From the NCBI GenBank assembly GCA_022833215.1, contig JAIPUZ010000113.1, positions 28,982 to 92,981 of the forward strand: a stretch of DNA of 64,000 nt, read 5' to 3'. The notes under the pieces are model-generated. The model did no database searches. It saw only the letters and a list, made by a program, of their open reading frames with translations, and was not told where the DNA came from. The position numbers were made by a program, and so were the translations under genes. Below, one piece after another: positions 7,789 to 60,506 of this stretch. Each line of letters begins with the position of its first letter. Position 1 is the first letter of the stretch. This DNA comes from Mesorhizobium sp. (GTDB lineage Bacteria > Pseudomonadota > Alphaproteobacteria > Rhizobiales > Rhizobiaceae).

Positions 7789-7804
7789 GTCGTGACTGCA
7801 CCAT
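7789..7804 (+). promoter_or_regulatory. Late-type promoter element 1 (GTCGTGAC TG CACCAT)
   Basis: First member of a 15-copy family GTCGTGAY-N2-YANNMT. The predicted start of transcription, seven bases after the last T, is the A at 7811. The ATG at 7803 overlaps the -10-like box and would not be in the mRNA, which supports the ATG at 7851 for the next gene. Confidence 0.75.
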
Positions 7805-7850
7805 GCTGGGAGGGGCGATGCCTCCATGCTGGTCAACGACGGAGATTTCC

Positions 7851-7967
7851 ATGTTCTACATCCTCGCAGTTCTTTTCGGCGTCGCCGGCGGGATCTACGC
7901 CGAGCGCAAGGGCTGGGTGAAGCTGGCGCTGGCAAAGCTCGAAAAGATCGCGGACCCTTTCAACTAG
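7851..7967 (+). CDS. Small single-pass membrane protein (38 aa)
   Basis: ACGGAG lies 7 bases before the ATG at 7851. The product is one hydrophobic helix (FYILAVLFGVAGGIYA) followed by a short basic amphipathic tail, so it is probably anchored in the inner membrane with the tail in the cytoplasm. It is the first gene behind the first late-type promoter; a GGAGG/CCTCC hairpin lies in its leader. Similar tiny membrane peptides can act in lysis control or superinfection exclusion, which cannot be decided from sequence. Confidence 0.6.
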   Translation: MFYILAVLFGVAGGIYAERKGWVKLALAKLEKIADPFN

Positions 7968-7974
7968 GATTGGT

Positions 7975-8250
7975 ATGGCTGTAATCTTCGGCCGAGTTCC
8001 CAAGGCGGAACTCGGAACTGTCTATACACACGTCGGTCGGTTTTACGGCATCATCCCCGTCTACATCGGCGATCCATTTGGCCCCGCTCCAGTCGTGGCG
8101 GTGCGCAACGGGCTGCCGGAATGGCTGCTTGATGCCGCTGACCTCGTGTGGAATTTGGCGGTGGCTGCGCGCCGGCTGTTCGATCCCACCTTCCCGCATC
8201 CGGGCTTCATGATGGCTGTCACGGGCGAGATCAAAAAGCCCCGCTCGTGA
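7975..8250 (+). CDS. Hypothetical protein (91 aa)
   Basis: Begins 8 bases after the small membrane protein. It has a beta-type start (VYTHVGRFYGIIPVYIGDP) and a C-terminal region with an amphipathic helix (LLDAADLVWNLAVAARRLF). No family recognised. Followed by the fourth composite element, so it probably ends this short unit. Confidence 0.55.
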   Translation: MAVIFGRVPKAELGTVYTHVGRFYGIIPVYIGDPFGPAPVVAVRNGLPEWLLDAADLVWNLAVAARRLFDPTFPHPGFMMAVTGEIKKPRS

Positions 8251-8265
8251 CCGGGCACCTGATGC

Positions 8266-8349
8266 TGAGTCTGGCGCCGGCCGGCCAGAAGCCCTTGGTA
8301 TAGCCGGCCGGCGCCGGCATCTGCCCCGCCCCGGGCGCGTATAGGGCGC
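8266..8349 (+). repeat. Composite intergenic element, copy 4, with 13-bp inverted repeat
   Basis: TGAGTCTGGCGCC begins at 8266. The arms GGCGCCGGCCGGC (8273-8285) and its exact complement (8303-8315) form a perfect 13-bp stem around 17 bases, very stable in RNA. GGGCGC follows at 8333-8338 and 8344-8349 (spacer GTATA), 11 bp apart and 64 bp after the GTCTG. The late promoter for the next gene starts 17 bases further on. Likely a transcription boundary; there is no U run. Confidence 0.7.
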
Positions 8350-8365
8350 GCTCCGCCGCGAAATC

Positions 8366-8381
8366 GTCGTGACCGTACCCT
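8366..8381 (+). promoter_or_regulatory. Late-type promoter element 2 (GTCGTGAC CG TACCCT)
   Basis: Matches the family consensus. The ATG of the 993-residue protein at 8389 lies seven bases after the last T, one more than in the other leaderless members. TACCCTGCAGGGTA is a perfect palindrome overlapping the -10-like box and reaching the start codon. Confidence 0.8.
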
Positions 8382-8388: not shown

Positions 8389-11370
8389 ATGTCGACGCCC
8401 TCCGTCTCCACGTTCCCCGTCTTGTTCCTGAAAGCCATGAAGAACAAGGCGGGTTATGCCCTCTACGGCAACCCGCCTCGCTGGCACAAGGTTGGCGGGG
8501 ACAAGACGGCGCCTGCCGACGCGCATCATGTTGCGATCTCTCACTACCATGTCGCTGCGGTCAAGAAGCTGCAAGCCGATGGCAAGCTGCACGGCCTCGC
8601 ACCGCATGAGCAGTCCGCCAAGGTAAAGGGCCTGGCTGCCGAACTGCAGGCGGCCGCATCGCAGTCTGCCGCAGTGTCGATGTGGAAGAAGGTTGCCAGC
8701 TCCGGCAAAAACCCGACGCCGGCGCAGTGGAAGGCGTTCTATGCGCTGTCCAAGGACAAGCAGTCGGACCTGCTGGGCCAGATCGGCGAGTCGACGGGCG
8801 GGCAGTGGTCGCACCTGTCGCCGCCGGACGAGGCCAAGCCGCAGGCGGCGCCCGCTCCCGAGCCGCCGAAGCCGGATCCTGCCACGCTCGCCTTGGCGGC
8901 GGTGGATTGGACCGGGATGACGCTGCCCGACACCAACGTCAACGCCGGAACGGTGAACAAGAAGCTGGCCGCACTGAAAGAGGCGGCGGCTACCGGCGAG
9001 CCCGAGAAGGTCGCGGCGCTGAAGTTCGGGGTGAACACCTACGGCAAGAAGCTCGCGGCTGCGCAGGCCAAGATCCTTGCCGCTCTCGGCGCGCCCGCGC
9101 AGGGCGTCGCTGCTGCGGTGGCCGCTACGCCCGCGCCGAAGGTGGCGAAGGTCGCAGCGGTGCCACCGTCCGCTGCGCCTGCGGCAGCTCCCGCACCGAA
9201 GCCGCCGCGCGTCGCCAAGGTGGCATCGTTCGCGCCCTCGTCGACCATCACCCTCGAGCACAAGACGGACGGCCACAACAAATTCTATTGGATCTCGGTC
9301 AGCGGCGATCAGGTATCCACGAAGTGGGGCGCGATCGGCACCACCGGCCAGACCACGACGAAGAAGTTCGATAACCCGTCCGTGGCGCTCGCCTATGCAA
9401 ATGCCCTTGCCGCTCAGAAGCTGAAGAAGGGCTATCAGCACACCTCGGGCAAGCTGCCCGACGCGCCGGCCTCGCCCAAGGTCGCCAGCGTCTCGCAGGC
9501 CGGCCCGAAGGAAGGCGACACGAAGCAGGGGGCGGACGGCATGCTCGTGCTGAAGCACGGGCGCTGGGTGAAGGTCGAACAGGACCAGCCGTCTGCGCCG
9601 GCCGCCCCGCATATAGATTCCCAGCCGCTGGACATCTCCGGCTGGAAGCAGGTAGGCCCGCAGGCCGGCTCGAACCCGGGTGGCGTGTTCGAAGCCCCGG
9701 ACGGCGCCCGCTACTACGTCAAATTCCCCAAAAATCCCGACCATGCGAAGTCCGAGGTTCTCGCGGCCAAGCTCTACGAGCTGGCCGGGATCACGGCCCC
9801 GATCTCGCGCATGGCGACGCAGAACGGCAAGGTCGGCATCGCCTCGCTCATGGACGAGTCCCTGAAGCACGACGTGCCGGCGCTGTCCTCTGGCAAGGTG
9901 CACAGCGTGAAGGCGGGCTTTGCCGCCGACGCCTGGCTGGCAAACTACGACGTGGCCGGCCTGGGCTTCGACAACGTCATGCTCAAGCCGACGGGCGGCG
10001 CCGTGCGCATCGACGTGGGTGCCTCGATGGAGTTCCGCGCGCAGGGTGCGAAGAAGCCTTTCGGCTCGAAGGTCGGGGAAACCAAGACCCTGCTGGATCC
10101 TAAGATCAACGCGCAGTCCTCGGCTATGTTCGCCGGCATCACGCCGGCCGACATCACCGCTGGCGTGGCGAAGATCGCCGCCATCCCCGACGAGGCCATC
10201 CGCTCGCTCGTGCTCGAGCACGGCCCCGGCACGGTCGCCGCGCGAAAAAAGCTGGCCGAGACGCTCATCGCCCGCAAGGCCGACCTGCTGAAGCAGTACC
10301 CGGCGGCTGCAAAGGCGGTGAAGAAGAAGCTGGACCCGACGAAGCTGCCTGTGGATCCCTTGCGGCTGCCGAAGGCGCACGACTTCGCCAACTGGAACGG
10401 GCCGGGCAATGGCCTGTCGTCGAAAGGCTACGTCAATGCTGCAAACGCGGCCGTCGAGCAGGAAATGCTCGCCATCGCTACGAAGGGCGACCTGCCGGCC
10501 CTGCGCGCCTTCACCTTCAAGTCCCTGAACAAGGAGTCCGGGCAGGCCACGGGCGCCTCGCACCCGATCTCGGAGCACCCGTCAAAGCACGTCGTGCAGC
10601 TGCATCAGGACTTGGTGACGCTGCTTGACGAAATCGCCAATCCGCCCGAGCCGCTGAAGCTGTTCCGCGCGACGGATGTGGGCTCCGTGGCCGGCATCGC
10701 CGCCGCGTTCCCGCCGAAGAAGTTCGGCACCACGGTCGCCAAGGTCAAATCCAACGAGAAGCTCGGCTTCTGGGTGGCGCTGGGGCAGGTGTCGTCGGTC
10801 GAGAAGTTCAAGCCGAAGGCGACCTCGCACTTCTCGTCGGCGGCGATCGCCGCGGCGAAGAAGAAGTTTTCGCAGGGTACGCCGCTGGCGCAGCACTTCA
10901 TTTCCTCGGTGCAGGCGTCGGGCTCCTACAACACCCTGTTCCGGGACGGGAAGACCCACGACCACTCCGGCCACAGCCTGGCGGACGTGGCGAAGGCCGC
11001 GCTCGAGCACGCCACTACCCAGCCGGAGGGCACCACGCTGTACCGCTGGCAGAATATGACGGACCCGATGGTGCAGCATGTGCTGAAATCGCCGGTCGGC
11101 ACGGTGGTGCAGGCCACCGGCCCGATGTGCACGTCCTACGATCCGACCGCCACGACGCACTTTGGCAAGCACCGGGTCATCATCCGCTATGCCAAAGGCG
11201 CAAAGGCGGTCGAGTCCTTCGGATCAGGAAAATACAAAGGCGAGAAGGAGGTGACCACGCTGCCGAACAGCCGCTTCGTCGTGCTCTCGCGGAAGATGGT
11301 TCCGTCCAGCACCGGTGGGCAGCGCCTCGATCTGGAATTGCTGATGTTGCCGCCTGACCTCGGCCTGTAA
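8389..11370 (+). CDS. Multidomain protein: WGR + kinase-like + ADP-ribosyltransferase
   Basis: At 993 residues this is a mosaic. Residues about 284-350 resemble a WGR domain (W313-GAIGTTGQ), as found next to poly(ADP-ribose) polymerases. Residues about 413-660 look like a HipA/PI3K-type kinase fold: K445 in YYVKF, NYD at 519-521, FDN at 527-529 and D542 in RIDVG. The last ~125 residues fit an R-S-E ADP-ribosyltransferase: R886 in LYRW, T915-S916 in CTSYD, and the ExE pair E952/E954 before TLPNSRFVVLSRK. Linkers are Ala/Pro/Lys-rich. The gene has no Shine-Dalgarno and sits on a late promoter among head genes, so an ejected virion effector that modifies host proteins is plausible. The kinase and WGR calls rest on pattern only. 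Confidence 0.72.
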   Translation: MSTPSVSTFPVLFLKAMKNKAGYALYGNPPRWHKVGGDKTAPADAHHVAISHYHVAAVKKLQADGKLHGLAPHEQSAKVKGLAAELQAAASQSAAVSMWKKVASSGKNPTPAQWKAFYALSKDKQSDLLGQIGESTGGQWSHLSPPDEAKPQAAPAPEPPKPDPATLALAAVDWTGMTLPDTNVNAGTVNKKLAALKEAAATGEPEKVAALKFGVNTYGKKLAAAQAKILAALGAPAQGVAAAVAATPAPKVAKVAAVPPSAAPAAAPAPKPPRVAKVASFAPSSTITLEHKTDGHNKFYWISVSGDQVSTKWGAIGTTGQTTTKKFDNPSVALAYANALAAQKLKKGYQHTSGKLPDAPASPKVASVSQAGPKEGDTKQGADGMLVLKHGRWVKVEQDQPSAPAAPHIDSQPLDISGWKQVGPQAGSNPGGVFEAPDGARYYVKFPKNPDHAKSEVLAAKLYELAGITAPISRMATQNGKVGIASLMDESLKHDVPALSSGKVHSVKAGFAADAWLANYDVAGLGFDNVMLKPTGGAVRIDVGASMEFRAQGAKKPFGSKVGETKTLLDPKINAQSSAMFAGITPADITAGVAKIAAIPDEAIRSLVLEHGPGTVAARKKLAETLIARKADLLKQYPAAAKAVKKKLDPTKLPVDPLRLPKAHDFANWNGPGNGLSSKGYVNAANAAVEQEMLAIATKGDLPALRAFTFKSLNKESGQATGASHPISEHPSKHVVQLHQDLVTLLDEIANPPEPLKLFRATDVGSVAGIAAAFPPKKFGTTVAKVKSNEKLGFWVALGQVSSVEKFKPKATSHFSSAAIAAAKKKFSQGTPLAQHFISSVQASGSYNTLFRDGKTHDHSGHSLADVAKAALEHATTQPEGTTLYRWQNMTDPMVQHVLKSPVGTVVQATGPMCTSYDPTATTHFGKHRVIIRYAKGAKAVESFGSGKYKGEKEVTTLPNSRFVVLSRKMVPSSTGGQRLDLELLMLPPDLGL

Positions 11371-13302: not shown

Positions 13303-13665
13303 ATGTGGATTATGCTTTCGGACAGTTTCCTGTCCATCGTCCATAAGGACTGCAAGCCCGATGAGCTGCTTGTACGGGCGCGTCGGAAGGGTGACGTCGA
13401 GCGGGTTTTCCCTCACGCAAAGGTGATCAGGACGCCTGGGAATGACTACCTTTTCCGGGCGGTACTTAAGCGCGACGAAGTGGTCGCCGCGATTGCCAAC
13501 AGGTTGAACACGCTGGGCTACGGGAACTACAAGTCATCGGTCAAAAACCGTCCGTTCCATAATGCGCTGAGCCGGGTCTGGAGCATCATGGCCGGCCTGC
13601 AGACGTCCGCGCCCTATTCTGGCGTGCGCCGTGGTCGTCGGGATCTGTTCGAGGAAATGCATTGA
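13303..13665 (+). CDS. Conserved-type phage protein of unknown function (120 aa)
   Basis: I place the start at ATG 13303 because AAGGTG is seven bases upstream; a GTG at 13294 is an alternative. The protein begins WIMLSDSFLSIVHKDCKPDE and contains RVFPHAKVIRTPGNDYLFRA, with RPFHNALSRVWSIMAG later. This pattern is familiar from phage and integrated-element proteins of roughly this length encoded away from structural genes, whose role is unknown. It overlaps the next gene by TGATG. Confidence 0.65.
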   Translation: MWIMLSDSFLSIVHKDCKPDELLVRARRKGDVERVFPHAKVIRTPGNDYLFRAVLKRDEVVAAIANRLNTLGYGNYKSSVKNRPFHNALSRVWSIMAGLQTSAPYSGVRRGRRDLFEEMH

Positions 13666-13919
13666 TGGACACCAATATCCGCCCTCTGGAAGATGTCGCG
13701 CAGGAGCACATGCAGACCGTGCCCACTGCCATCTTGAGCGCGTTCGTCCGTGGCGACCTCGACCTGATGCTCTGCGTGCGTGCCGAACTGGCCGCGCGCG
13801 GGCTCGGCCTGCATGGCGAGTGGATTGGGTTCGAGGAAGCCATGCGGCTTCATCTCGGCCTTGATCCTGACTGCAAGTCTGATGCCCCGCCCGCGCCGGG
13901 CTTGGAAACGCTGGGGTGA
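13665..13919 (+). CDS. Hypothetical protein (84 aa)
   Basis: Starts in a TGATG overlap with the preceding gene. It is helical (LEDVAQEHMQTVPTAILSAF) with LMLCVRAELAARGL and a conserved-looking GEWIGFEEAMRLHLGL near the C-terminus. I do not know the family. The fifth composite element overlaps its last 45 bases, the only copy that begins inside a gene. Confidence 0.55.
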   Translation: MDTNIRPLEDVAQEHMQTVPTAILSAFVRGDLDLMLCVRAELAARGLGLHGEWIGFEEAMRLHLGLDPDCKSDAPPAPGLETLG

Positions 13920-13956
13920 CGGCCTCGGCCAGCGGCCTCGGGCGCTGGTCGGGCAC
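13875..13956 (+). repeat. Composite intergenic element, copy 5 (degenerate)
   Basis: AAGTCTGATGCC lies inside the end of the preceding gene; 63 bases after its GTCTG come GGGCGC (13940-13945) and GGGCAC (13951-13956), 11 bp apart with spacer TGGTC. GGCCTCGG is repeated between them and can form small stems. The late promoter at 13964 follows after eight bases. Confidence 0.55.
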
Positions 13957-13963
13957 ATTCCGG

Positions 13964-13979
13964 GTCGTGACCGCAGAAT
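13964..13979 (+). promoter_or_regulatory. Late-type promoter element 3 (GTCGTGAC CG CAGAAT)
   Basis: Matches the 15-copy family. Predicted transcription start is the A at 13986, giving a 35-base leader before the ATG at 14021. It is the one copy without a clear inverted repeat across the start region. Confidence 0.7.
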
Positions 13980-14020
13980 GGCAGCATCCCATTTATCGCT
14001 TCGGCTTCTGGAATCCTGTC

Positions 14021-14392
14021 ATGCAAAAATGCATTCTCCTGTTCGGCAAACCCGGTGCTCTCGGTGAACTAACCAAGTCCCGGATCAGTGGCTACACCCG
14101 AAAGGACGGGACTTTCGTTGCCGAGCACGACGACAAACGACAGGCCGCAGCCAAGTCGGCCCGCAGTTCCCTGTACCCTGACAATGAAGCACTCGGCCCG
14201 CACCGGGTCGGCGAAAAGGTTTCGTACAAGAACGATAAAGGTGTCACCCGGCAAGGGAAGGTGAAGGGTGGGCGCGACGGGAAGGTCGTTGTCGAGCACT
14301 CCGATGGGTACACCGAAACCGTGCACCATCGTGATCTCACCAATCACGAAATCGCCCGCAACAAGGCCAACAAGCCCGCCTTCGGCTGGTAG
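14021..14392 (+). CDS. Hypothetical protein with GYTRKDG motif and KOW-like segment (123 aa)
   Basis: ATG 14021 is chosen because it is the first start downstream of the predicted transcription start. Near the N-terminus it carries SRISGYTRKDGTFVAEHDDK, a motif common in phage head-region proteins, and the C-terminal half (GEKVSYKNDKGVTRQGKV, GGRDGKVVVEHSDGYTETV) looks like a small beta-barrel of KOW type. The gene at 19097 has a similar basic beta segment. It stands directly before the terminase gene. Function unknown. Confidence 0.65.
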   Translation: MQKCILLFGKPGALGELTKSRISGYTRKDGTFVAEHDDKRQAAAKSARSSLYPDNEALGPHRVGEKVSYKNDKGVTRQGKVKGGRDGKVVVEHSDGYTETVHHRDLTNHEIARNKANKPAFGW

Positions 14393-14395
14393 ACT

Positions 14396-14411
14396 GTCGT
14401 GATGCCATCCT
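14396..14411 (+). promoter_or_regulatory. Late-type promoter element 4 (GTCGTGAT GC CATCCT)
   Basis: The terminase ATG lies exactly six bases after the last T, at the expected transcription start, and no Shine-Dalgarno is present. GCCATCC-TGATT-GGATGGC forms a 7-bp inverted repeat across the box and the start codon. Confidence 0.85.
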
Positions 14412-14417
14412 GATTGG

Positions 14418-17054
14418 ATGGCTCAGCAGATCAAGGTCAGGCTGCCGGACCCTCACCCGGCTCAGAAGAAAGCGCTCGCTCGTGCCGAGCGCTTTAATAT
14501 TGTCGCGATGGGCGAGGATGGCGGAAAGACCACCCTCGGGATCGAGGCGCTTCTGGCTGGCGACAAGGGCGCTCTGCGCGGCCACCCGGTCGCGTGGTTC
14601 TCCGCCACCGATGCCGACCTGACCGACGCCCGGCGCCGCGTTCTCCGAGCTGTGGATGCCCTGATTTCGGCCCGGCCGAGCCGCCGCCGCGTGGAGCTGG
14701 TCACCGGCGGGATCATCGACTTCTACACCCTGGACGACAAGCGGCTTGATGCCGTGGAGCAGTACGCTACCATCGTGGTGGACGACGCGGCCGCTTGCGA
14801 TCGCCTGCTCGACCTGTGGGAGGACGTGTTCCTGCCGTCGCTGCGCCAGCATCAGGGCACGGCGTGGGTGCTCTCCCACGCATTCGGCAAGAAGAACCAC
14901 TTTTACAAGCTCTGGCGCATGGGCGCCGCCGATCCCGATTTCGCCTGCTGGCAGTTCCCTTCGGACGCGAACCCTCACCTTCCCGACGACACTCGGGCCG
15001 AAATGGATGCGGCCACCGAGCCCGAGCGCCAGCAGCGGTTCGAGGCGGAGTTCCTCGACGTTGCCTTCGTGCTCAATGCCGGGCAGCGCGTCATCAAGCC
15101 TGGCGAGACCTTCCGCCAGTGGTGCGAGCGGCTGTCGAAGGATGGCCTGAAGGTCGACGGCAAGGCGTTCAAGCTGGACGACCGGCCGGCCATGGCGTGG
15201 ATCTATGACCAGATCCCCAGCACCCACGAGGAAGCCTACAACTACGTGCTCGTGCTGATGAAGTGCGCGCAGGTGGGCTTCACCGTCATGGAAATGCTGG
15301 CCTGCATCTACCTTGGGCTGAAGTTCGGCCCGGCCACGGTCGGCATGTTCCTGCCCGACACCAATCTGGCGGACATCAAATCGTCCAAGCGCTTCATGCC
15401 CGTGGTGCGCTCGGTGCCTGATGTGCACGCGCTCATGACCATGGATGCGCTGGACGGGTCCGGGCGCAAGGCCGGCGAGGGTAACGTGCGCGTGCGCAAC
15501 ATCGGCTCGGCCATGTTCGTGTTCTCGTGGACCTCGGGCAAGGCGACCACCGAGTCGATCCCGATGGACGTGCTCTCCTTCGACGAAGTGCAGGAGATGA
15601 CGCTCGACCAGATGGAGAAGACCCGCGAGCGTCTGTCGGCCTCGCCCGTGCGCTTCACGCTCATGGGGTCGACCGCCAACTGGCCCGACGCGGACATCGA
15701 CGCCTGGTACAAGCGGGGCAGCCGGAACAAGTTTCACACCGAGTGCCCGCACTGCCTGGAGAAGAAGCCGCTCGACGACTATTTCCCGCAGTGCATCCGC
15801 TTTGACCCCGACCGGAACGTGCACAGGTATGTCTGCTTCTCCTGTGGGGGCTGGATCGACGACACCCAGCGCGGCGAATGGATTGCCGAGGCGCCGGAAC
15901 TCGAAGCGCCCGGTGATCCGAGCATCCCGCTGAAAGATCGGCCGATGCGGATCAAGTCGATCCACTTCCCGCAGTTCCTGTCGCCCACGATCAGCGCCGG
16001 CGAAATCATCCATGCCTACAACACCGCGGCCAGCCTGAAGAACTTCTACAACCGGAAGCTCGGCAAGCCGTGGGCCGACCCGTCGCAGATCCCGGTGAAC
16101 CTGGAGATCCTGCAGGCGTGCGCCGACGAGGGTATGCGCCTCGGCTTGGTGTGGAAGACGCGCGCCGCCGGCACGTTCATGGGCATCGACCAGATGGGCC
16201 AGTTCAACGTCGTCATCATCAAGGAGCGGCTGCCCGATGGGCGGCAGGCGACGGTGCACCTCGAGTACATCTTCGACTCGGATCCGTTCGCGCGCTGCTC
16301 GGACCTCATGGGGATCTACGGCGTGCAGTGCTGCGTCGTGGAAATCCTCCCGAACTACAACGACGCGAAGCGCTTTGCCCAGCGCCACCCCGGCCGGGTG
16401 TTCCTCGCCAATTACCGCAAGCTCGACGGGGAAATGCTGGTTTGGGGCGACACGCCCACCGCGAACGCCTCTGATCGCCGCACCGACGACGAGGCGCTGG
16501 ATCGCTACACGGTCGCGCTCGACCAGTACAAGTGCATGCAGGTGTCTATGGCCCGCTTCGTCAAGAAGCTGTGCCTGTTCCCGGATCCCGATGGGCTGGT
16601 GCAGGAGGTGATCGAGAAGGGCGTGCGCCAGAACATGGCGATCTGCCGCGAGCTGGCGTTCCTGCATTTCACAAAGACCGCGCTCGTCGTCGAAGAGGAC
16701 GAGGAAGAGAAGAAGTTCACGCGCAAGGTGGTGAAGGTGGGGATCGACCCGCACACCAGCTATGCCAATATGCTGTGCGACGTGGCATGGGCGCGCGCCT
16801 ACGGCACCTCAACCTTCCTCATGCCGCCGGCGGCGCCACCGGAGGAAGCACCCGTCCAGATCGTCCGCGGCGGCGGCTCGGCGGTGACGCAGTCGCTGCC
16901 GATGGCTGCGCAGGAGGTCATGGCGGCGCAGCATCTGTCCGGGGATGTGTGCGGCCGGTGCACGGCTTTTGCCGAGGGCCGCTGCGTCGAGCGCGGCGTG
17001 CTCGTGCGCCCGAAGGATCCCGGCTGTTTCCAGTTTATGGCTGTGGAATACTAG
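14418..17054 (+). CDS. terL: Terminase large subunit with an extra N-terminal ATPase-like domain
   Basis: At 878 residues this packaging motor is longer than usual because two terminase pieces are joined. Residues 1-215 resemble the ATPase of Terminase_6-type proteins: GEDGGKTT at 32-39 for Walker A, IVVDDAA at 119-125 for Walker B (catalytic Glu replaced by Asp), and a coupling-type SHAFGKKNHF near 153. Residues about 255-800 are a complete lambda gpA-type terminase: K282-CAQVGFT (compare lambda KSARVGYS), FDE at 388-390, a CPHC/CFSC zinc pair (443-476), nuclease acids at D591 and E642, and a late CDVAWARAY. The tail has CGRC and two further cysteines. The second half should be the working motor. 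Leaderless late promoter; 3' end overlaps the HicA-like gene by 20 bp. Confidence 0.93.
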   Translation: MAQQIKVRLPDPHPAQKKALARAERFNIVAMGEDGGKTTLGIEALLAGDKGALRGHPVAWFSATDADLTDARRRVLRAVDALISARPSRRRVELVTGGIIDFYTLDDKRLDAVEQYATIVVDDAAACDRLLDLWEDVFLPSLRQHQGTAWVLSHAFGKKNHFYKLWRMGAADPDFACWQFPSDANPHLPDDTRAEMDAATEPERQQRFEAEFLDVAFVLNAGQRVIKPGETFRQWCERLSKDGLKVDGKAFKLDDRPAMAWIYDQIPSTHEEAYNYVLVLMKCAQVGFTVMEMLACIYLGLKFGPATVGMFLPDTNLADIKSSKRFMPVVRSVPDVHALMTMDALDGSGRKAGEGNVRVRNIGSAMFVFSWTSGKATTESIPMDVLSFDEVQEMTLDQMEKTRERLSASPVRFTLMGSTANWPDADIDAWYKRGSRNKFHTECPHCLEKKPLDDYFPQCIRFDPDRNVHRYVCFSCGGWIDDTQRGEWIAEAPELEAPGDPSIPLKDRPMRIKSIHFPQFLSPTISAGEIIHAYNTAASLKNFYNRKLGKPWADPSQIPVNLEILQACADEGMRLGLVWKTRAAGTFMGIDQMGQFNVVIIKERLPDGRQATVHLEYIFDSDPFARCSDLMGIYGVQCCVVEILPNYNDAKRFAQRHPGRVFLANYRKLDGEMLVWGDTPTANASDRRTDDEALDRYTVALDQYKCMQVSMARFVKKLCLFPDPDGLVQEVIEKGVRQNMAICRELAFLHFTKTALVVEEDEEEKKFTRKVVKVGIDPHTSYANMLCDVAWARAYGTSTFLMPPAAPPEEAPVQIVRGGGSAVTQSLPMAAQEVMAAQHLSGDVCGRCTAFAEGRCVERGVLVRPKDPGCFQFMAVEY

Positions 17055-17238
17055 TGGCGGCGCGGCGTAGTTTCGCCAGCCCGTTCTTGAAGGCTCGCGC
17101 GTCGCTTGGTGTTGAACTGAAGAACACCGGCGGCGGATCGGGCCGGCTGAATTTCCAATGGTCGCCGCGTGTCTTGGATACGGCGAAGCCTAATTTTTTG
17201 GCCTCGGCGATCACCTTGTGCACTCCATCCTTGACCAT
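17035..17238 (-). CDS. HicA-like phage protein (67 aa)
   Basis: The start at ATG 17238 has GGAAAGGAA directly upstream; an ATG at 17271 lies in the putative operator. The protein has the HicA fold pattern, LGFAVSKTRGDHWKFSRPD with the active-type His in GDHWKF, then the tail STPSDARAFKNGLAKLRR that marks the phage-type subgroup. HicA toxins cleave mRNA, but no HicB antitoxin gene is adjacent, so it may be a domesticated RNA-binding protein. It is on the minus strand between terminase and portal and shares its promoter module with the early gene at 6265, so it may be expressed in the lysogen or early. Confidence 0.75.
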   Translation of the reverse strand: MVKDGVHKVIAEAKKLGFAVSKTRGDHWKFSRPDPPPVFFSSTPSDARAFKNGLAKLRRAATSIPQP

Positions 17239-17252
17239 TTCCTTTCCTTGAT

Positions 17253-17294
17253 GAGCCCAATACGCGCCCATTGTGTCTCAATTTTGAGGAAAGG
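17253..17294 (-). promoter_or_regulatory. Minus-strand promoter/operator of the HicA-like gene
   Basis: Read on the minus strand this is CCTTTCCTCAAAATTGAG, then CACAAT as -10-like box, then GGGCGC (17269-17264) and GGGCTC (17258-17253) 11 bp apart with spacer GTATT. It aligns base for base with 6199-6240 with few changes. The palindrome CTCAATTTTGAG (17277-17288) is the likely repressor site. Confidence 0.7.
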
Positions 17295-17353
17295 AGTGCA
17301 GTTACAAACGCTTGCCGGGGACCGGCGCCGGACTTCGTGTCTGATGCCGCCCC

Positions 17354-17369
17354 GTCGTGATCTTACGCT
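17354..17369 (+). promoter_or_regulatory. Late-type promoter element 5 (GTCGTGAT CT TACGCT)
   Basis: The portal ATG is six bases after the last T. No Shine-Dalgarno. A small dyad (CGC-TT-GCG) overlaps the box. Confidence 0.82.
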
Positions 17370-17375
17370 TGCGGT

Positions 17376-19100
17376 ATGAGCGACACTGCCCGTGCAATTG
17401 CCTTCGATCCCGCTGCGCCTGCCGACGAGCGGTTCGACGCCCAAGCTGAACTGCAGCAGGCGGCCGCGCCGTCGTCGGTGCCGGACATGCTCCCGCTCGT
17501 CCAGTACGTCGCGGAGCAGTACCGCGAGCAGCAGATGACAAAGTCCCTGGAGCGGGCCAAGGTCATCCCGTTCCCCTCGCGCGCCGTCGAGCGCGGCAAG
17601 CCCGGGATGCAATCGGTCTGGCTGGACGACCAGCGCGTCCACGTCATGGGCGACTGGTATGAGCGGCCCTCGGCCTTCTCCTACGACACCATGCGACAGA
17701 TGGTGGCGCAAACGCCGGTGCTGTCGTCCGTCATCCTGACCCGCGGAAGGCAGGTGAAGCGGTTCTGTCGCGTGTCGGAGGCCGGCAAGGGGCCGGGCTT
17801 CCAGATCCGTCTGAAGGATCCGAACGCCAAGGCCGGCCGGGCGGAAACGGAATCGATCGCGCTGCTGCAGGACTTTTTCACGAACTGCGGCTGGGAGAAG
17901 AACCCCCGCCAGCGCGCCCGGCTGCGTCGCGACAACTTCTCGAATTTCATGGCGAAGCTGGTGCGCGACAGCTTGACCATGGACTCGGCCCCCATCGAAA
18001 CCGAGTACAAGCGCGACCGCTCCCTCGGCCTGGATGGCATGTACGCCGTGGACGGCGCGACGCTGCGCTTGTGCACCGACGAGGGCTATCAGGGCGACGA
18101 CGAGATTTTCGCCCTGCAGGTGGTCGAGGGCCGGCCGCGCGCGGTCTACACCTACAACGACCTGATCTACGTCCCGCGCAACCCTGTCACGGACGTCATG
18201 TCCGGCGGCTATGGGATGTCCGAGACGGAGCTGCTGGTCCGCGTGGTGACGGGCTTCCTGAACGCCTTCACCTACAACACCAGCTATTTCGACAAGAACG
18301 CCATCCCGAAGGGGCTTCTGCATCTGACTGGCGATTATTCGCCGGAGGATCTGTCCGCCTTCAAGCGGTACTGGAACAGCATGGTCCGGGGCATCAACAA
18401 TGCTTGGACCCTGCCGGTCATGGTGTCGAAAAATCAGGAGAGCAAGGCCGCGTTCGAGAACTTCGGCATTGAGGTCTCCGACGTTCTGTTCGAGCGCTGG
18501 ATGACCTTCCTGACCGCGATCATCTGCGCGATCTATGGCATGTCGCCGGAAGAGATCAATTTCGACTCGTTCTCGACCCGGTCGTCGTCCCTGTCGGGCA
18601 ACGACACCGAGGAAAAGCTGATCTCGTCGAAGGACAAGGGGCTGCGGCCGCTGCTGACGCACTTCGAAGACCTGTTCTCGGACTACGTCGTGGCGGAGTT
18701 CTCCGACAAGTATGTGTTCCGCTGGACCGGGCTCGACGAGAAGGATGAGAAGCAGCTGTGGGACGAGGAAAAGACGCTCTCCACGGTGAACGAGGCCCGC
18801 CAATCGCGCGGGCAGGATCCGGTGAAGGGCAGCTGGGGCGACGCCCCGCTGAATCCCGCGCTGATGTCCGCCTGGCAGGCCGAGAACCAGACCAGCAGCG
18901 AGGACTACGGCGATCCCGATGAGGATGGGGACTTCGGCGGTGATGACGATCGCGACGGCCAGCTTGGCGGTGCCCCTGGCGACGACGAGGATGACGCCAG
19001 CGACGCGGGTGATGGCGCCCCTGGCGCCGACGAAGAAGACGACGATGGCGAGCCGATCCAGAAATCCTTCGGCCTGCCGGTCTTGAGGATCGAGGTATGA
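17376..19100 (+). CDS. Portal protein
   Basis: A 574-residue protein with the features of phage portals: a long N-terminal wing, the conserved ligand NPVTDVMSGGYGMSETELLV, then LNAFTYNTSYFDKNAIPKGL, and a central stem region. The portal forms the dodecameric ring at the capsid vertex through which the terminase pumps DNA. The last 100 residues are a very acidic Asp/Glu/Gly tail, often used in such proteins to bind scaffold or DNA-like surfaces. It starts on a leaderless late promoter and its stop overlaps the next gene by ATGA. Position after terminase confirms the call. Confidence 0.93.
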   Translation: MSDTARAIAFDPAAPADERFDAQAELQQAAAPSSVPDMLPLVQYVAEQYREQQMTKSLERAKVIPFPSRAVERGKPGMQSVWLDDQRVHVMGDWYERPSAFSYDTMRQMVAQTPVLSSVILTRGRQVKRFCRVSEAGKGPGFQIRLKDPNAKAGRAETESIALLQDFFTNCGWEKNPRQRARLRRDNFSNFMAKLVRDSLTMDSAPIETEYKRDRSLGLDGMYAVDGATLRLCTDEGYQGDDEIFALQVVEGRPRAVYTYNDLIYVPRNPVTDVMSGGYGMSETELLVRVVTGFLNAFTYNTSYFDKNAIPKGLLHLTGDYSPEDLSAFKRYWNSMVRGINNAWTLPVMVSKNQESKAAFENFGIEVSDVLFERWMTFLTAIICAIYGMSPEEINFDSFSTRSSSLSGNDTEEKLISSKDKGLRPLLTHFEDLFSDYVVAEFSDKYVFRWTGLDEKDEKQLWDEEKTLSTVNEARQSRGQDPVKGSWGDAPLNPALMSAWQAENQTSSEDYGDPDEDGDFGGDDDRDGQLGGAPGDDEDDASDAGDGAPGADEEDDDGEPIQKSFGLPVLRIEV

Positions 19101-19633: not shown

Positions 19634-19649
19634 GTCGTGACGGCACGAT
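19634..19649 (+). promoter_or_regulatory. Late-type promoter element 6 (GTCGTGAC GG CACGAT)
   Basis: A full match to the family directly after the terminator, but with no convincing gene before the next promoter at 19781. The predicted transcript would start near 19656. Confidence 0.7.
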
Positions 19650-19780: not shown

Positions 19781-19796
19781 GTCGTGATGCCATTCT
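19781..19796 (+). promoter_or_regulatory. Late-type promoter element 7 (GTCGTGAT GC CATTCT)
   Basis: The MuF gene ATG is six bases after the last T and there is no Shine-Dalgarno. GCCA-TTC-TGGC overlaps the box. Confidence 0.82.
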
Positions 19797-19802: not shown

Positions 19803-20954
19803 ATGGGCCTGTTCCTCGACATCATCCACCTCTCCGAGCCGCAGACCGAGCGCGCCCTGTCGGAGATCTATAAATCCGTGCATGACCACGACGCCGGGGA
19901 CACGCCCCACGAGTCGCCGTTTGTGCGCCGGATCATCGAGCTTTTCCACCAGCGTGGGCTCGCCTACCTCGATACGGTGCAGGCCGAGCTGCAGAAGTGG
20001 GCGGCCGGCAAGTATCACAAGGCCGGCGAGGTGCCGCCGCGTCCGCTTGGCACGATGCAGCGCTGGACGCAGGCCGAGGCCGATCTCGTGCGCATCTACC
20101 TGCGCGCGCTGCCGCCGGCCGACTGGACGCTGCAGGACCACATGATGATGGTCGACTATGTGTTCCAGCGCTACCTGCCCCCCGATGCACTGGTGGCGGA
20201 GGCCGAATGGATGGCTACGCGGTCGACGCTCATGGGGAAGGTGCAGGCCAACCTCGACAAACCGCCCACGATCTCGCAGGCCGATACCATCCTGGTGGCG
20301 CTGCCGAACACGGTCGCCGCGGCCCTGGAGCAGTTTCCGCTCACGCGCACGCAGCAGGCCGTGCTCGATGTGGCGGCTGCGCGGGGCGCTGAGTACGTCA
20401 CCAACTTCGCGGACGATGCCCGGCGGCGCCTGCGCGGCATCATCCGCCGGCACGCCGAGGAAAGTATGCTCCGGGTGCGCGGCACGCCGGGCCAGTCCCT
20501 CCAGACCCAGCTTGTGGACGCCTTCGCGGACTTGAACCGCGACTGGCGGCGGATCGCCGTGACGGAGGCCGGCAACAACGCTTTGGTCGGGTTCATCGCC
20601 AGCTTGAAGCCCGGCACGAAGGTCAAGCGGGTGGAGCAGTACATGAACGCGTGCCCGCACTGCAGGAAGATCGACGGGCGGGTCATGACGGTGGTGGCGC
20701 CGGAAAAGCCCGGCAAGAATCCTGACACCGAGGTATGGGTCGGCAAGACCAACTACGGGCGTGCGGCTGCCACGCACAAGCGGGTAGGGAACCAGTTGGT
20801 GCCGCGCACGAAGGATGAGCTGTGGTTCATCCCCGCCGGACTGATGCATCCCAACTGCCGGGGGCGCTGGGTGCGCGTCTTGGAGGCGCAGGAGGGGGAC
20901 GATCCCGAGTTCGCTGGCTGGCTGCAGGACTTGCTGTCGAAAAAGCCTAGCTGA
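19803..20954 (+). CDS. MuF-like minor head protein
   Basis: A 383-residue protein of the phage Mu gpF (SPP1 gp7) type. The C-terminal half carries the family pattern: DWRRIAVTEAGNNALVG, then NACPHCRKIDGRVM and later GLMHPNCRGRWVRV, with Cys/His residues that may bind metal. Such proteins are present in few copies in the head, interact with the portal and may enter the cell with the DNA. Leaderless late promoter. The 3' end overlaps the convergent AraC gene by 8 bp. Confidence 0.9.
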   Translation: MGLFLDIIHLSEPQTERALSEIYKSVHDHDAGDTPHESPFVRRIIELFHQRGLAYLDTVQAELQKWAAGKYHKAGEVPPRPLGTMQRWTQAEADLVRIYLRALPPADWTLQDHMMMVDYVFQRYLPPDALVAEAEWMATRSTLMGKVQANLDKPPTISQADTILVALPNTVAAALEQFPLTRTQQAVLDVAAARGAEYVTNFADDARRRLRGIIRRHAEESMLRVRGTPGQSLQTQLVDAFADLNRDWRRIAVTEAGNNALVGFIASLKPGTKVKRVEQYMNACPHCRKIDGRVMTVVAPEKPGKNPDTEVWVGKTNYGRAAATHKRVGNQLVPRTKDELWFIPAGLMHPNCRGRWVRVLEAQEGDDPEFAGWLQDLLSKKPS

Positions 20955-21725: not shown

Positions 21726-21741
21726 GTCGTGACCGCACCAT
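21726..21741 (+). promoter_or_regulatory. Late-type promoter element 8 (GTCGTGAC CG CACCAT)
   Basis: The helicase ATG is six bases after the last T. GTCACG-TTGT-CGTGAC makes the upstream octamer part of a perfect 6-bp inverted repeat, and ACCATGGT is a palindrome over the box. No Shine-Dalgarno. Confidence 0.83.
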
Positions 21742-26850: not shown

Positions 26851-26866
26851 GTCGTGACGTCAACAT
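26851..26866 (+). promoter_or_regulatory. Late-type promoter element 9 (GTCGTGAC GT CAACAT)
   Basis: The protease ATG is six bases after the last T; no Shine-Dalgarno. TGACG and CGTCA form a dyad across the region. Confidence 0.83.
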
Positions 26867-33480: not shown

Positions 33481-33496
33481 AGCGTACCGTCACGCC
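33481..33496 (-). promoter_or_regulatory. Minus-strand late-type promoter element (GGCGTGAC GG TACGCT)
   Basis: One mismatch in the octamer (GGCGTGAC for GTCGTGAC), a perfect -10-like box and the standard six bases to the ATG at 33474. It stands back to back with element 10, only three bases apart, making a divergent pair. Confidence 0.8.
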
Positions 33497-43296: not shown

Positions 43297-43312
43297 GTCG
43301 TGACCATACTCT
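43297..43312 (+). promoter_or_regulatory. Late-type promoter element 11 (GTCGTGAC CA TACTCT)
   Basis: The ATG at 43319 is six bases after the last T. CCATACTC-TGA-GAGTATGG is a perfect 8-bp dyad over the box and start codon, the best of the family. Confidence 0.85.
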
Positions 43313-51175: not shown

Positions 51176-51353
51176 GGATCCTCGGGCGGCGCGCGCGTCG
51201 TCGTATGGGGAGGTGGGCGACCAGCTCGACGCCATCATGAAGATGGCCGACGCGCTCGCCGCGCAGGGCGTGGCCCTGCCGCAGGAGACCCTGGACTGGA
51301 TCGAGCAATGCAAGGGGGTGAAGACCCGCTTCCCGGCTCGTCCACCGTCGTGA
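51156..51353 (+). CDS. XkdW-like small tail protein (65 aa)
   Basis: I take the TTG at 51156 because GGGAG lies six bases upstream and the conserved text begins there. SSYGEVGDQLDAIMKMADAL is a close variant of the YPPIGDQLDALWK-type motif found in small proteins after fibre genes of many phages, usually annotated as XkdW-like or tail-fibre assembly. Function is not known. The TGA stop is part of the next late promoter. Confidence 0.65.
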   Translation: MKIRHHEDPRAARASSYGEVGDQLDAIMKMADALAAQGVALPQETLDWIEQCKGVKTRFPARPPS

Positions 51354-51362
51354 CGATAACCT
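51347..51362 (+). promoter_or_regulatory. Late-type promoter element 12 (GTCGTGAC GA TAACCT)
   Basis: Overlaps the preceding stop. Predicted transcription start near 51369 gives a leader of about 22 bases with AGGAG before ATG 51391. CCTGCTCC and GGAGCAGG form an 8-bp dyad across the start region. Confidence 0.78.
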
Positions 51363-55813: not shown

Positions 55814-55817
55814 ATTG

Positions 55818-55833
55818 GTCGTGACGCCACAAT
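55818..55833 (+). promoter_or_regulatory. Late-type promoter element 13 (GTCGTGAC GC CACAAT)
   Basis: Predicted start at A55840 gives a 15-base leader beginning with AGGAGG, so the Shine-Dalgarno would be the very 5' end of the mRNA. ATCCTC-ACAG-GAGGAT is a 6-bp dyad. Confidence 0.78.
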
Positions 55834-58322: not shown

Positions 58323-58334
58323 TAGGAAAATTCC

Positions 58335-59552
58335 ATGGCCCTTTTCGCCGACAACAACGGCGTCGTGCAGGGGAAATTCACGATTCCTGAAGGTGTTCCC
58401 GCCGGCCGCAAATCCGTCCATTTCGAGGGCAGCGGCGGCAGCTTCGGCGATGCGGTGTTTACCGGGCAGGGGACGCTCATCACCGAGACCATGCAGGAGG
58501 TCATCGAGCAGACGACTACCACCGTCCAGCGCGTCGGGACTGACCCGCTGGCGCAGACCTTTTCGCTTACGCGCCGGGGCATGCTGGGTGCCGTCGATCT
58601 GTTCGTCGTCACGCTCGGCACCACCCCGATCATTGTCCAGATCCGCGATACGATGGTGGGCATCCCCACCTCGACCGTGCTGGCGGAGGCCCGTCTCAAG
58701 CCCAGCGAAATCACGGTCGATCGGTGGAATCGCTGGATCTTCCCGCAGCTGCTGACGCTGAACCCCGATCAGGAATACTCCATTGTCGTCCTATGCGACG
58801 ACGCCGACTCTGAGGTCGCCATCGCGGAAATGGGCGCTTGGGACACCGAGAACAACCGTTGGGTGACCAGCCAGCCCTTCCAGATCGGCACGCTGCTGTC
58901 CTCGTCGAACGCCAGCACTTGGACCCCACACCAAGACCGCGACCTGTCGTTCCGTCTGCAGTTCGCCCGCTTCACCGAAAGCGAGCGCGTGGTGAACCTG
59001 GGCAACGTAGCGGTCACCAACGCGACCGACCTGCTGGCCTCCCTGCTCACGATCTCGCCAGCCAACGGTGCGACGAGTTCAATCGAGCTTGACCTGCCGG
59101 ATGGCCGGCGGGTGACGGCCGATGATGGCCAGCTGATCGGGCTGGAAGGGCTCACCTCGGGCAATATCCCCGTGCGCGCCCGGCTGCGCGCCACGCCGGA
59201 TCTGAGTGCCCAGATTTATCCAGGCTCGCAGATCATTCAGGGCCGGGTCGCCACAACCGCGACCTACATCTCGCGCGCCGTCCAAATGGACGCCGCCGGC
59301 AGCAACGTGCGGGTCGTTTTCAGTGCCTTCGTTCCCTCCGGTGCGTCCATGGGCGTGTCGATCTCGAACAACGGGACCGAGTGGCAGAGCATCAATATGG
59401 ATGGGAACCCGATGGCTATCGGGGACGGGGTTTTTGAGTACCAGTACTATGCGCAGAACCTGACGTGGCCGATGGTCCGGGTAAGGATCCAGATGACGGG
59501 AACCGTCACCGTGCGTCCGATCGTCGGGCGCCTGCGCGTAAGCGTCACCTGA
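58335..59552 (+). CDS. Baseplate-associated beta-rich protein (405 aa)
   Basis: Follows the DUF4815-like gene and is likely its partner: FADNNGVVQGKFTIPEGVPA at the start, then TDPLAQTFSLTRRGMLGAVD and FVVTLGTTPIIVQIRDTMVG, two beta-sandwich domains of the kind seen in fibre-connecting baseplate proteins, and a C-terminal lectin-like domain. No enzyme motif is seen. The pair DUF4815 plus this type recurs in related tails. Confidence 0.65.
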   Translation: MALFADNNGVVQGKFTIPEGVPAGRKSVHFEGSGGSFGDAVFTGQGTLITETMQEVIEQTTTTVQRVGTDPLAQTFSLTRRGMLGAVDLFVVTLGTTPIIVQIRDTMVGIPTSTVLAEARLKPSEITVDRWNRWIFPQLLTLNPDQEYSIVVLCDDADSEVAIAEMGAWDTENNRWVTSQPFQIGTLLSSSNASTWTPHQDRDLSFRLQFARFTESERVVNLGNVAVTNATDLLASLLTISPANGATSSIELDLPDGRRVTADDGQLIGLEGLTSGNIPVRARLRATPDLSAQIYPGSQIIQGRVATTATYISRAVQMDAAGSNVRVVFSAFVPSGASMGVSISNNGTEWQSINMDGNPMAIGDGVFEYQYYAQNLTWPMVRVRIQMTGTVTVRPIVGRLRVSVT

Positions 59553-59559
59553 GAAAGTT

Positions 59560-60480
59560 ATGACCGATGATCGCACCAGTTTTTTGGATTTGCCCCTTCC
59601 GCACGAGGAAAACTTCCTTGATGCCGACGTGCTCCGGCTTCGCACGGCGCTGACCAGCCTTGACAGCGCCATCTCGTCGTTGACCGACGATGTCACAGCC
59701 TTGGCTATTCTTGTCCCGTCGAACTTGCCCGATAAGCTGTCGGGGCTTTCCAGCGACGTCAGCGATTTAGAGACGACTCTCATGTCGGTTCAAAGCGACG
59801 TGAATACCCATGGTTCGGCAATTTCTGCCTTGGAGGGGGCTCGCGGCGCTGCCAATGGGATCTGCGATCTGAACGCGAGCCGGCTCGTGCCCGTCGAGCG
59901 GCTCCCGAACCTCAACGCCTCGAAGATCACCGCCGGCACGTTCGACGTGGCGCGCCTGCCCGGCCTCGACGCCTCCAACATCGGCACTGGCGTATTCGTC
60001 GTGGACCGGATCCCCAACCTTGCCGCGTCCAAAATCACGAGCGGCACCCTCAACGCAGCCCGCATCCCTGCGCTGGCTACGAGCAAGATCACCGGCCTCG
60101 ATGCAGCGCTGGACAGCAAGTTCAACGCCGCCGGCGGCACGATCTCAGGCGCCGTGAGCGTGACCGGCAACGTCAGCGTGACGGGCCAGATCACCGCCTC
60201 GGGCGATATCACGGCCTTTTCGGACGAGCGCCTGAAAACCAAAGTCACCACCCTTGCCGATGCGCTGGAAAAGGTCCGCGCGCTGCGGGGTGTGAGCTTC
60301 CACATGGGCGGTGCTCGCAGGATCGGCGTCATCGCGCAGGAAGTTCGGCGCGTCGTGCCCGAGGTTGTCGCCGATGGCGGAGAGTACCTGTCCGTGGCCT
60401 ATGGCAACCTCGTCGGCCTGCTGATCGAAGCGGTCAAGGAGCTGGCTGGCCGCGTCGATTCCCTTTCCGACCGCGTGTAG
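59560..60480 (+). CDS. Tail fibre with C-terminal S74 self-cleaving chaperone
   Basis: The 306-residue protein has a helical start, repeats of LPNLNASKITAGTFDVARLP type that form a trimeric beta stalk, and a C-terminal intramolecular chaperone of the peptidase S74 family: SDERLK at 221-226 with the catalytic Ser-Lys pair, then RIGVIAQEVRRVVPEVV and YGNLVGLLIEAVKEL. The chaperone trimerises the fibre and cuts itself off. Last structural gene before the lysis cassette. Confidence 0.9.
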   Translation: MTDDRTSFLDLPLPHEENFLDADVLRLRTALTSLDSAISSLTDDVTALAILVPSNLPDKLSGLSSDVSDLETTLMSVQSDVNTHGSAISALEGARGAANGICDLNASRLVPVERLPNLNASKITAGTFDVARLPGLDASNIGTGVFVVDRIPNLAASKITSGTLNAARIPALATSKITGLDAALDSKFNAAGGTISGAVSVTGNVSVTGQITASGDITAFSDERLKTKVTTLADALEKVRALRGVSFHMGGARRIGVIAQEVRRVVPEVVADGGEYLSVAYGNLVGLLIEAVKELAGRVDSLSDRV

Positions 60481-60490
60481 GCGCTGAAAC

Positions 60491-60506
60491 GTCGTGACGG
60501 GACACT
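60491..60506 (+). promoter_or_regulatory. Late-type promoter element 14 (GTCGTGAC GG GACACT)
   Basis: The box has G at the first position, the only departure from Y. Predicted start near 60513 gives an 18-base leader with GAGGG before ATG 60531. TCCCTC and GAGGGA form a 6-bp dyad. Confidence 0.75.

Follow-up and report, generated by a model that had tools for sequence, protein, structure and literature searches.

A putative late promoter family of a Mesorhizobium phage and a Cys-rich protein as its candidate activator

In a Mesorhizobium assembly, a phage contig of 93 kb (C113) contains in its late part 15 copies of a two-part element, GTCGTGAY-N2-YANNMT, which appears to constitute a family of late promoters. 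In the model that we consider probable, these promoters are used by the host RNA polymerase with the help of a 174-amino-acid phage activator bound to the octamer, the transcription units are in part leaderless, and small plasmids carry a copy of the activator. The window is the whole stretch of 64,000 nucleotides that was analysed; the phage that it belongs to is probably a temperate myovirus of about 93 kb.

Results

The motif family in the window

The 15 sites listed in the first-pass annotation are a real motif family, and the list stands. There are 13 exact matches to the full pattern in the window, all on the plus strand, against 0.05 expected, and none of 100 shuffles reached this number; the sites at 60491-60506 (plus strand, hexamer GACACT) and 33481-33496 (minus strand, GGCGTGAC) are members with one mismatch. 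The octamer GTCGTGAY as such occurs 16 times (6.1 expected), and two of these octamers, at 47772 on the minus strand and at 49611, both within the gene 45231-50786, are not followed by such a hexamer. A candidate outside the list, with one mismatch (37029-37044, plus strand, octamer GTCGTGAG), is a possible extra member in front of the tape-measure-region genes; it has CTG, not ATG, at +22. The earlier statement that the motif is missing from the early genes holds true: none of the 13 exact matches lies before 7.8 kb, and the 29 kb of the contig to the left of the window do not contain the octamer.

Most sites stand at the start of a gene, as had been claimed for all of them. At nine of the 15 an AUG follows at exactly 22-23 nt from the start of the octamer. 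Seven of these are exact plus-strand motifs, putative leaderless-type late promoters with the ATG at +22, at 14396-14411 (terminase large subunit, 14418-17054), 17354-17369 (portal, 17376-19100), 19781-19796 (minor head protein, 19803-20954), 21726-21741 (large helicase, 21748-26295), 26851-26866 (head maturation protease, 26873-27754), 33500-33515 (gene 33522-34394) and 43297-43312 (virion structural protein, 43319-44509). The minus-strand site 33481-33496 stands back-to-back with the one at 33500 and has its ATG also at +22; it would serve, as a leaderless-type promoter, the antisense gene 32608-33474 (minus strand, phrog_16819, unknown function), which is conserved and lies inside the late region; each of the five named relatives compared has a homolog. 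The exact site 8366-8381 (plus strand) has the ATG at +23 and precedes the gene 8389-11370, of whose 993-aa product about 570 aa match ORFs annotated as ADP-ribosyltransferase in Dolphis, ST4 and fHe-Yen8-01. Three more plus-strand sites, predicted promoters with a leader, are each followed by an ORF that begins between +37 and +44: 51347-51362 (exact, ORF 51391), 55818-55833 (exact, ORF 55855 behind the Shine-Dalgarno sequence aggagg) and 60491-60506 (ORF 60531). The assignment to a gene start is less clear for three exact plus-strand matches. The site 7789-7804 precedes a 38-aa ORF (7851-7967), and 13964-13979 lies inside a called ORF, 57 nt before the in-frame ATG 14021 (gene end 14392). 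The third, 19634-19649, is located 3' of a tRNA-Met, the tRNA being the only match of an Rfam search, and a gene of its own before 19803 is not convincing.

Occurrence outside the window

The strict pattern has 13 matches in the phage contig and is nearly absent from the other 4.46 Mb of the assembly, with a single match (reversed control, 3). The relaxed pattern gave 14 matches in the 93-kb contig and 13 in the rest of the assembly (reversed control, 5), eight of the latter 13 being one repeated 16-mer. For six of seven sets of related phages, a de novo search for 8-mers in front of -10-like hexamers ranked GTCGTGAC/T first, and the same motif is present in phages whose annotated sources are Pseudomonas, Aeromonas, Yersinia and Bordetella. 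Among 43 terminase-related records 39 contain the motif, the reversed control none. This enrichment and the de novo recovery support the original proposal of a phage promoter family that marks the late region.

The hexamer as a -10 box and the leaderless start

In the window and its relatives, a hexamer that has A at -11 and T at -7 accompanies 222 of 287 octamers. An AUG is found at +22 or +23 at 120 of these 222 sites (+22 in 105, +23 in 15), compared with a mean of 3.07 ATGs at each other offset, and of the 65 octamers without the hexamer only two have an ATG at +22 and one at +23. This fixed spacing of 22 nt to the AUG had escaped the first-pass annotation. From the distance of 22-23 nt between octamer start and AUG it follows that the hexamer would be a degenerate -10 box (NANNMT) at -12 to -7, with the octamer at -22 to -15 and the start expected on the AUG. 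A Shine-Dalgarno sequence of three or more nt is missing at 106 of 116 leaderless-type sites; it is present at 55 of the 71 remaining sites that have an ATG 28-60 nt downstream, a count that took the best of all ATGs and so favours a match. In leaderless promoters the -10 box lies 6-7 nt before the ATG, and the sites described here, with transcription starts predicted from the sequence, have this spacing and no Shine-Dalgarno sequence. They resemble such promoters in the inferred start on the AUG, and differ in being linked to an upstream octamer and limited to the late phage region. The pattern suggests that at roughly half of the sites the transcripts start on the AUG and are leaderless late mRNAs. 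The constant distance to the AUG at many sites could also be read as a sign that the element is a translation-start signal or an operator rather than a promoter. We give this hardly any credence, because octamer and -10 half go together and because elsewhere the AUG is farther off and mostly behind a Shine-Dalgarno sequence, as expected for a promoter, not for a ribosome signal.

The claim that a classical -35 box is absent was borne out: the best match to TTGACA has on average 2.6 of 6 bases at the 15 sites, against 2.64 at random positions. In a logo of 288 sites the 25 nt that precede the octamer carry no information and no dyad. The A/C at -8 is present in 93% of the sites. The coupled hexamer would by itself be compatible with host sigma70 polymerase acting alone on an unusual extended -10 promoter, with no phage activator. 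We think this very unlikely: the logo has no TGn at -15/-14 (-15 to -13, positions 7-9), and the -10 is poor, 53% of the sites having C at -12. Outside the phage contig the assembly hardly contains the motif, yet phages of four other host genera have it unchanged, and its restriction to the late region suggests control of timing. Even less probable, in our view, is that a phage RNA polymerase or sigma factor reads octamer and hexamer as one element. The strict spacing of the two halves would agree with this, but the assembly has 13 sigma70 region-2 matches, all outside the phage contig, and a search for single-subunit polymerases found no match, its positive control also remaining unmatched. 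Between the two modes of recognition considered earlier, the phage polymerase found no support in this search, and host polymerase with a phage factor is favoured by the octamer-hexamer coupling, by the lack of a sigma match on the phage contig and by the co-occurrence of a candidate factor.

A candidate activator

This candidate is a Cys-rich protein of 174 aa. Its gene, at 22974-23498 of contig C113, about 5.5 kb to the left of the window, is the first of a pair and is directly followed by that of a second Cys-rich protein. In Dolphis the corresponding gene lies at L084:16689-17213, of which only a part is annotated, as gp82. It had no Pfam or PHROG family, and no fold match in the PDB at E 0.001. 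Its AlphaFold model is confident (pLDDT 90) and matched a single 90-aa entry in a viral fold search, which looks like Dolphis gp82 from its length, identity and accession series. The family has seven invariant Cys and one nearly invariant. The protein may bind zinc and DNA, although the model itself gives no evidence of DNA binding.

The factor is present in 34 of the 43 terminase-related records, among them every one of the 26 that are longer than 65 kb, a threshold set after the fact. Conversely, 29 of 32 factor-bearing virus records contain the motif (reversed-pattern control 0 in all). Because the phage records are related by descent, most of this co-occurrence is not independent. Of 16 records checked from a motif-only scan, five contain the factor; eight of the other 11 have 3-12 sites in 37-69 kb and may be fragments, and the remaining three have two sites each (33 and 137 kb) or one (37 kb). 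The factor occurs without the motif in three records that seem to belong to a single phage type (G115 type, 37% identical) and in Mecenats66 (31%). Divergence of the factor alone does not explain these exceptions, since factors of 30-38% identity come with 10-14 motif copies. The G115-type records have YCGGGAC at late genes, which is only suggestive of a variant element, the single-base counts of TCGGGA and CCGTGA being equal (3 each). In Mecenats66 a de novo search gave nothing clear; inspection of upstream regions by hand found a few degenerate sites, e.g. ATCGTGAT-N2-GATAAT before ORF71. A phylogenetic profiling argument that Mecenats66 lacks the 174-aa gene was wrong and was dropped, the 31% ortholog spanning the ends of the record.

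At four of 88 factor loci (five by alternative start codons) the motif lies within the 400 nt before the factor match, thus autoregulation is not general; in three bacterial genome loci it precedes the factor gene by 49-90 nt.

Satellite-like plasmids

All eight of the small factor-bearing plasmids that were retrieved contain the motif, these eight representing few types; the chance expectation in the four tested was 0.01-0.08. Such plasmids look like satellites or parasites of these phages. Some related satellite-like plasmids carry resistance genes. In the 10-kb and 13-kb plasmids L096 and L098, of which 6 and 14 genes were compared, the strong match to the phages is a factor-type domain, and nearly nothing else is shared in this comparison.

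These plasmids bear on the possibility that the element is a late promoter whose octamer is the target of a different phage protein (the second Cys-rich protein, a small HTH protein or the antisense-gene product), with the 174-aa protein travelling along. Those genes are likewise common to the motif-bearing phages, and the second Cys-rich protein resembles the C-terminus of 300-aa satellite-type proteins (hhalign E 0.00023, probability only 44%). L096 and L098, however, keep the motif with the factor-type domain, and neither the antisense gene nor the HTH protein has a match in them, so we regard recognition by another protein as unlikely. The antisense-gene product was set aside as the factor because its gene is present in Mecenats66 and unmatched among the satellite genes compared. 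The 174-aa protein is the likely recogniser of the octamer, as a candidate suggested by the sequence comparisons.

Discussion

The first-pass annotation knew of no described promoter of this form. None of the matches listed for the motif, the phage group, leaderless late promoters and satellites contained a description, and the word 'promoter' does not occur in the Mecenats66 paper (PMC9503643). The P1 late promoters are, however, similar: the record annotates a 9-bp '-22 region' and a -10 without an own -35, and one divergent pair (LP26/LPpmgL) with a common -22 region. The P1 system depends on the host protein SspA. In P1 the spacing between the -22 element and the -10 is 4 bp (LPpac, LP26, LPsit, LP23, LPpmgL) or 9 bp (LPhot), here it is 2 bp. 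P1 late genes are driven by the small phage activator Lpa (gp10), according to PMC8198154. The likeness consists of a -10 without -35 and an activator element near -22; homology of the 174-aa protein to Lpa was rejected at the sequence level (hhalign probability 0.1).

According to PMC8628076, P2 Ogr and P4 delta represent a late activator common to phage and satellite. Ogr is a zinc-finger protein, and the sites of the P2-like phage in PMC5694545 are TGTTGT-N13-ACAACA dyads that precede the start codon by 50-90 nt. A possible parallel is that factor homologs occur here in plasmids together with the motif, these plasmids being putative satellites; the difference is a dyad upstream there, a single octamer beside the -10 here. 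The 16 families matched at E 0.1 by 48 members of the factor family include neither PF04606 (Ogr) nor the GcrA family.

GcrA reads methylated DNA and, to our knowledge, has no Cys pairs of the kind seen in the factor family. The likeness is that the 174-aa protein would work beside the -10 by way of sigma domain 2, as do GcrA and other activators of this type (PMC7403470).

In the proposed mechanism the main sigma factor of the host and its RNA polymerase would read NANNMT at -12 to -7, and the phage-encoded activator, most likely the 174-aa protein, would sit on GTCGTGAY at -22 to -15, adjoining the -10, and replace the -35 contact. An ordinary promoter would supply the activator ahead of the late phase, and the activator would then turn on the scattered late units. 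At about half of the sites transcription would start on the A of the AUG and give leaderless mRNA, the other transcripts having a 5' leader, mostly with a Shine-Dalgarno sequence. Satellite-like plasmids would have their own activator copy, in some of them behind the same promoter, and so respond to the late phase of the helper. Transcription starts, use of sigma70, activation, timing and satellite behaviour are what we infer here from comparison of sequences. A broader proposal could equally well turn out right or wrong: that a hitherto unrecognised family of zinc-binding sigma70 co-activators runs largely leaderless late regulons of widespread 90-kb temperate phages, and that satellite plasmids with the activator behind the same promoter are self-amplifying sensors of the helper's late phase.

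If the model is correct, it would provide a testable late switch for a group of phages that has many hosts and little regulatory annotation, and a simple promoter with one octamer for the study of activation next to the -10. It would also mean that phages of Gram-negative bacteria have natural leaderless mRNAs of structural genes, and the motif and the protein together would be a sequence handle for recognising related phages and satellite-like plasmids.

Motif abundance and conservation among phages

The window makes up the last 64 kb (28982-92981) of the 92,981-bp contig C113 in a 4.55-Mb assembly of 131 contigs. C113 has phage-family matches for terminase, portal, protease and major head proteins. 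Its eight best named relatives by terminase (Pseudomonas phages Dolphis, Jeremy and Touem01, Aeromonas ST4, Enterobacter phiT5282EW, Yersinia fHe-Yen8-01, Morganella Mecenats66, Bordetella PHB04) are phages of 86-96 kb, thus C113 is about one phage genome long; no overlap was found between its ends. A conserved antisense gene (phrog_16819; window 32608-33474, minus strand) lies between the head and tail genes; each of the five named relatives used for comparison has a homolog of it.

The octamer GTCGTGAY occurs 16 times in the window (6.1 expected) and is absent from the first 29 kb of C113. With the hexamer, as GTCGTGAY-N2-YANNMT, it occurs 13 times against 0.05 expected, always on the plus strand; the 15 sites claimed by the first-pass annotation are these exact matches plus two one-mismatch members. 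The octamers at 47772-47779 (minus strand) and 49611-49618, which lack the hexamer and fall within the gene at 45231-50786, are probably due to chance. The strict pattern was found 13 times on C113 and once in the remaining assembly (reversed control, 3). The relaxed pattern GTCGTGAYN3AN3T gave 14 copies on C113 and 13 elsewhere (reversed control, 5), eight of the latter being one repeated 16-mer. This identical sequence, GTCGTGATGTGAATCT, found eight times, on contigs C13, C17, C19, C37, C42, C114, C116 and C126, in three cases near the contig start, is probably a repeated host element separate from the late-promoter family. With an ATG attached, the motif matched 2 of 101 genomes: the source genome seven times, all on C113, and one other genome once.

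When all 8-mers present at least four times before NANNNT were ranked in seven phage sets, GTCGTGAC or GTCGTGAT came first in six (C113, Dolphis, ST4, fHe-Yen8-01, PHB04 and a 40-kb piece of a Rhodovastum phage-like plasmid), Mecenats66 being the sole exception. By annotation, the same kinds of genes, e.g. portal and capsid protease, stand behind the sites in Dolphis and ST4. The relaxed motif was present in 61 of 79 terminase loci from viral contigs; its copies there totalled 188, where five rearranged octamers averaged 4.0.

Anatomy of the promoter-like element

Among 288 distinct sites, selected by the core TCGTGA and the A and T of the hexamer, the final octamer base was C or T in 89% and position -8 was A or C in 93%; no information content was seen in the 25 nt that precede the octamer. 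The hexamer accompanied 222 of 287 distinct full-octamer sites in the window and its relatives. Of these 222, 105 had an ATG at +22 from the octamer start and 15 at +23, against 3.07 per other offset; for the 65 octamers lacking the hexamer the numbers were two and one. The window has eight sites with ATG at +22 and one at +23. The back-to-back octamers at 33481 and 33500, with divergent genes behind them, are both of this leaderless type. With the A of the AUG as +1, the octamer falls at -22 to -15 and the hexamer at -12 to -7, the place of a sigma70 -10 box.

A Shine-Dalgarno match of even 3 nt was absent at 106 of 116 leaderless-type sites and present at 55 of the 71 remaining sites with an ATG 28-60 nt away (here the best of all ATGs was scored; shuffled upstream sequence gave none in 1060 of 2000). 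Two such classes, one with AUG at a fixed distance and no Shine-Dalgarno, the other with a farther ATG and a Shine-Dalgarno, agree with the prediction for a promoter whose start point is fixed. If the element were a ribosome signal or an operator, this pattern would not be expected. We are almost certain that the motif is real, conserved and promoter-like, and consider it very likely that transcripts would start leaderless on the AUG at leaderless-type sites.

A candidate activator and its co-occurrence with the motif

Script-called ORFs of six phages were compared, and for 32 C113 ORFs a homolog was present in all of Dolphis, ST4, fHe-Yen8-01 and PHB04. One encodes a 174-aa Cys-rich protein (C113 22974-23498; 13975-14499 of the left-flank stretch L080), with a second Cys-rich protein gene directly 3' of it; the assembly gave no other match of this kind to the 174-aa protein. 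In the alignment of 48 members, cysteines C17, C29, C46, C49, C72, C90 and C93 are invariant, C75 is nearly so, and there is a basic stretch, NRxRExxxGxNAxG. Searches of Pfam and PHROG, and of NCBIfam for the members given, yielded no convincing family assignment. For an ortholog with 63% identity AlphaFold gave a confident model (pLDDT 90.3), and a PDB search with it returned no fold match. Sequence comparison showed no relation to Lpa. Two orthologs are easily missed: that of Mecenats66 spans the record ends (OL614104, 85704-14), and Dolphis gp82 (16689-17213 of stretch L084) is annotated from an internal start.

The relaxed motif was present, in 1-26 copies, in 29 of the 32 virus records listed with a factor, out of 67 loci; the reversed control was present in none of them. 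Stretches around 88 factor loci had it in 63 cases (110 copies, 2.8 for controls). Of the 43 records listed as terminase-related, out of 79 loci, the motif was present in 39 and the factor in 34, the latter including all 26 records above 65 kb, a cut chosen afterwards; these phage counts are not independent because of shared ancestry. The four motif-negative records are apparently one phage type three times and a 33-kb fragment. The motif persists in 10-14 copies in some records whose factor shares just 30-38% identity with that of C113. A motif-only scan speaks against the link: it gave at least 120 stretches, and of 16 larger records checked, five had the factor and 11 gave no match, eight of the latter being 37-69 kb long with 3-12 copies. 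These eight, two of which look like the same phage, may be fragments. We regard the 174-aa protein as probably the specific activator of the motif sites.

Small plasmids

The best independent evidence for the link comes from small plasmids. The factor matched 42 plasmid records, 41 from Enterobacterales genera and one from Rhodovastum, all typed non-mobilizable. All eight of the small plasmids chosen from these and similar matches for inspection (L095-L099, L316-L318) carried the motif (4, 2, 1, 2, 3, 2, 2 and 2 copies; 0.01-0.08 expected in the four tested), and are not eight independent cases because they represent few plasmid types; one copy, in an insertion sequence of pEC224_4, is probably chance. 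Three units stand behind motifs in L095 and L099: small ORF plus factor, HTH plus primase, and one that leads into the transglycosylase. In the 19- and 27-kb plasmids, the primase, the small-terminase-like protein and the tape-measure-type transglycosylase of the phages also have relatives. In L096 (10 kb, 6 genes compared) the factor was the only match, and L098 (13 kb, 14 genes compared) gave the factor and one weak primase match. At 13320-17644 the 19-kb L099 encodes a tape-measure-type transglycosylase (45% to ST4) and a tail protein (71% identity with its ST4 counterpart), which suggests that this plasmid may contribute tail components of its own to a helper particle.

In the 10-14-kb plasmids L316 (8873) and L317 (8378) the motif is followed by a terminator-like hairpin with a T run, seen by eye, and a strong Shine-Dalgarno, possibly an attenuated leader or a small RNA. 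L095 (NZ_CP018944.1) and L318 (NZ_OQ821212.1) combine factor homolog and motif with resistance genes, CTX-M-14 beside ISEcp1 and KPC-3 with Tn4401 genes, respectively.

Possible mechanism

Each mechanistic step past the sequence pattern we infer. What fits best is that host sigma70 holoenzyme would read the -10, and an activator would bind the octamer directly upstream. The first-pass annotation had noted the lack of a classical -35, and our scan of the motif sites likewise found no -35 element; its suggestion of host polymerase plus a phage factor is favoured by this and by the absence of a sigma70 region 2 match on C113. The -10 is poor and should need help, because C is common at -12.

Earlier expression of the factor than of the motif-driven genes would fit, since the octamer is absent from the 160 nt upstream of eight factor genes (seven from phages or virus records). 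A motif copy in the 400 nt upstream was seen for 4 of 88 factor loci; bacterial genomes supplied three loci (Burkholderia, two Noviherbaspirillum) with the motif 49-90 nt ahead of the factor gene. In virus record G160, in contrast to the eight genes above, a copy (18345-18360, minus strand) directly adjoins the beginning of the factor match, possibly a case of autoregulation in a phage; a factor gene behind the motif would give positive feedback.

Among described layouts, the closest found is that of phage P1, whose late promoters have an annotated -22 region next to a -10. Phages and plasmids sharing a factor appear to follow a logic similar to P2 Ogr and P4 delta, and the factor-bearing small plasmids would live as satellites. 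Late-promoter activator systems are a known kind, and the system described here would be a variant of them.
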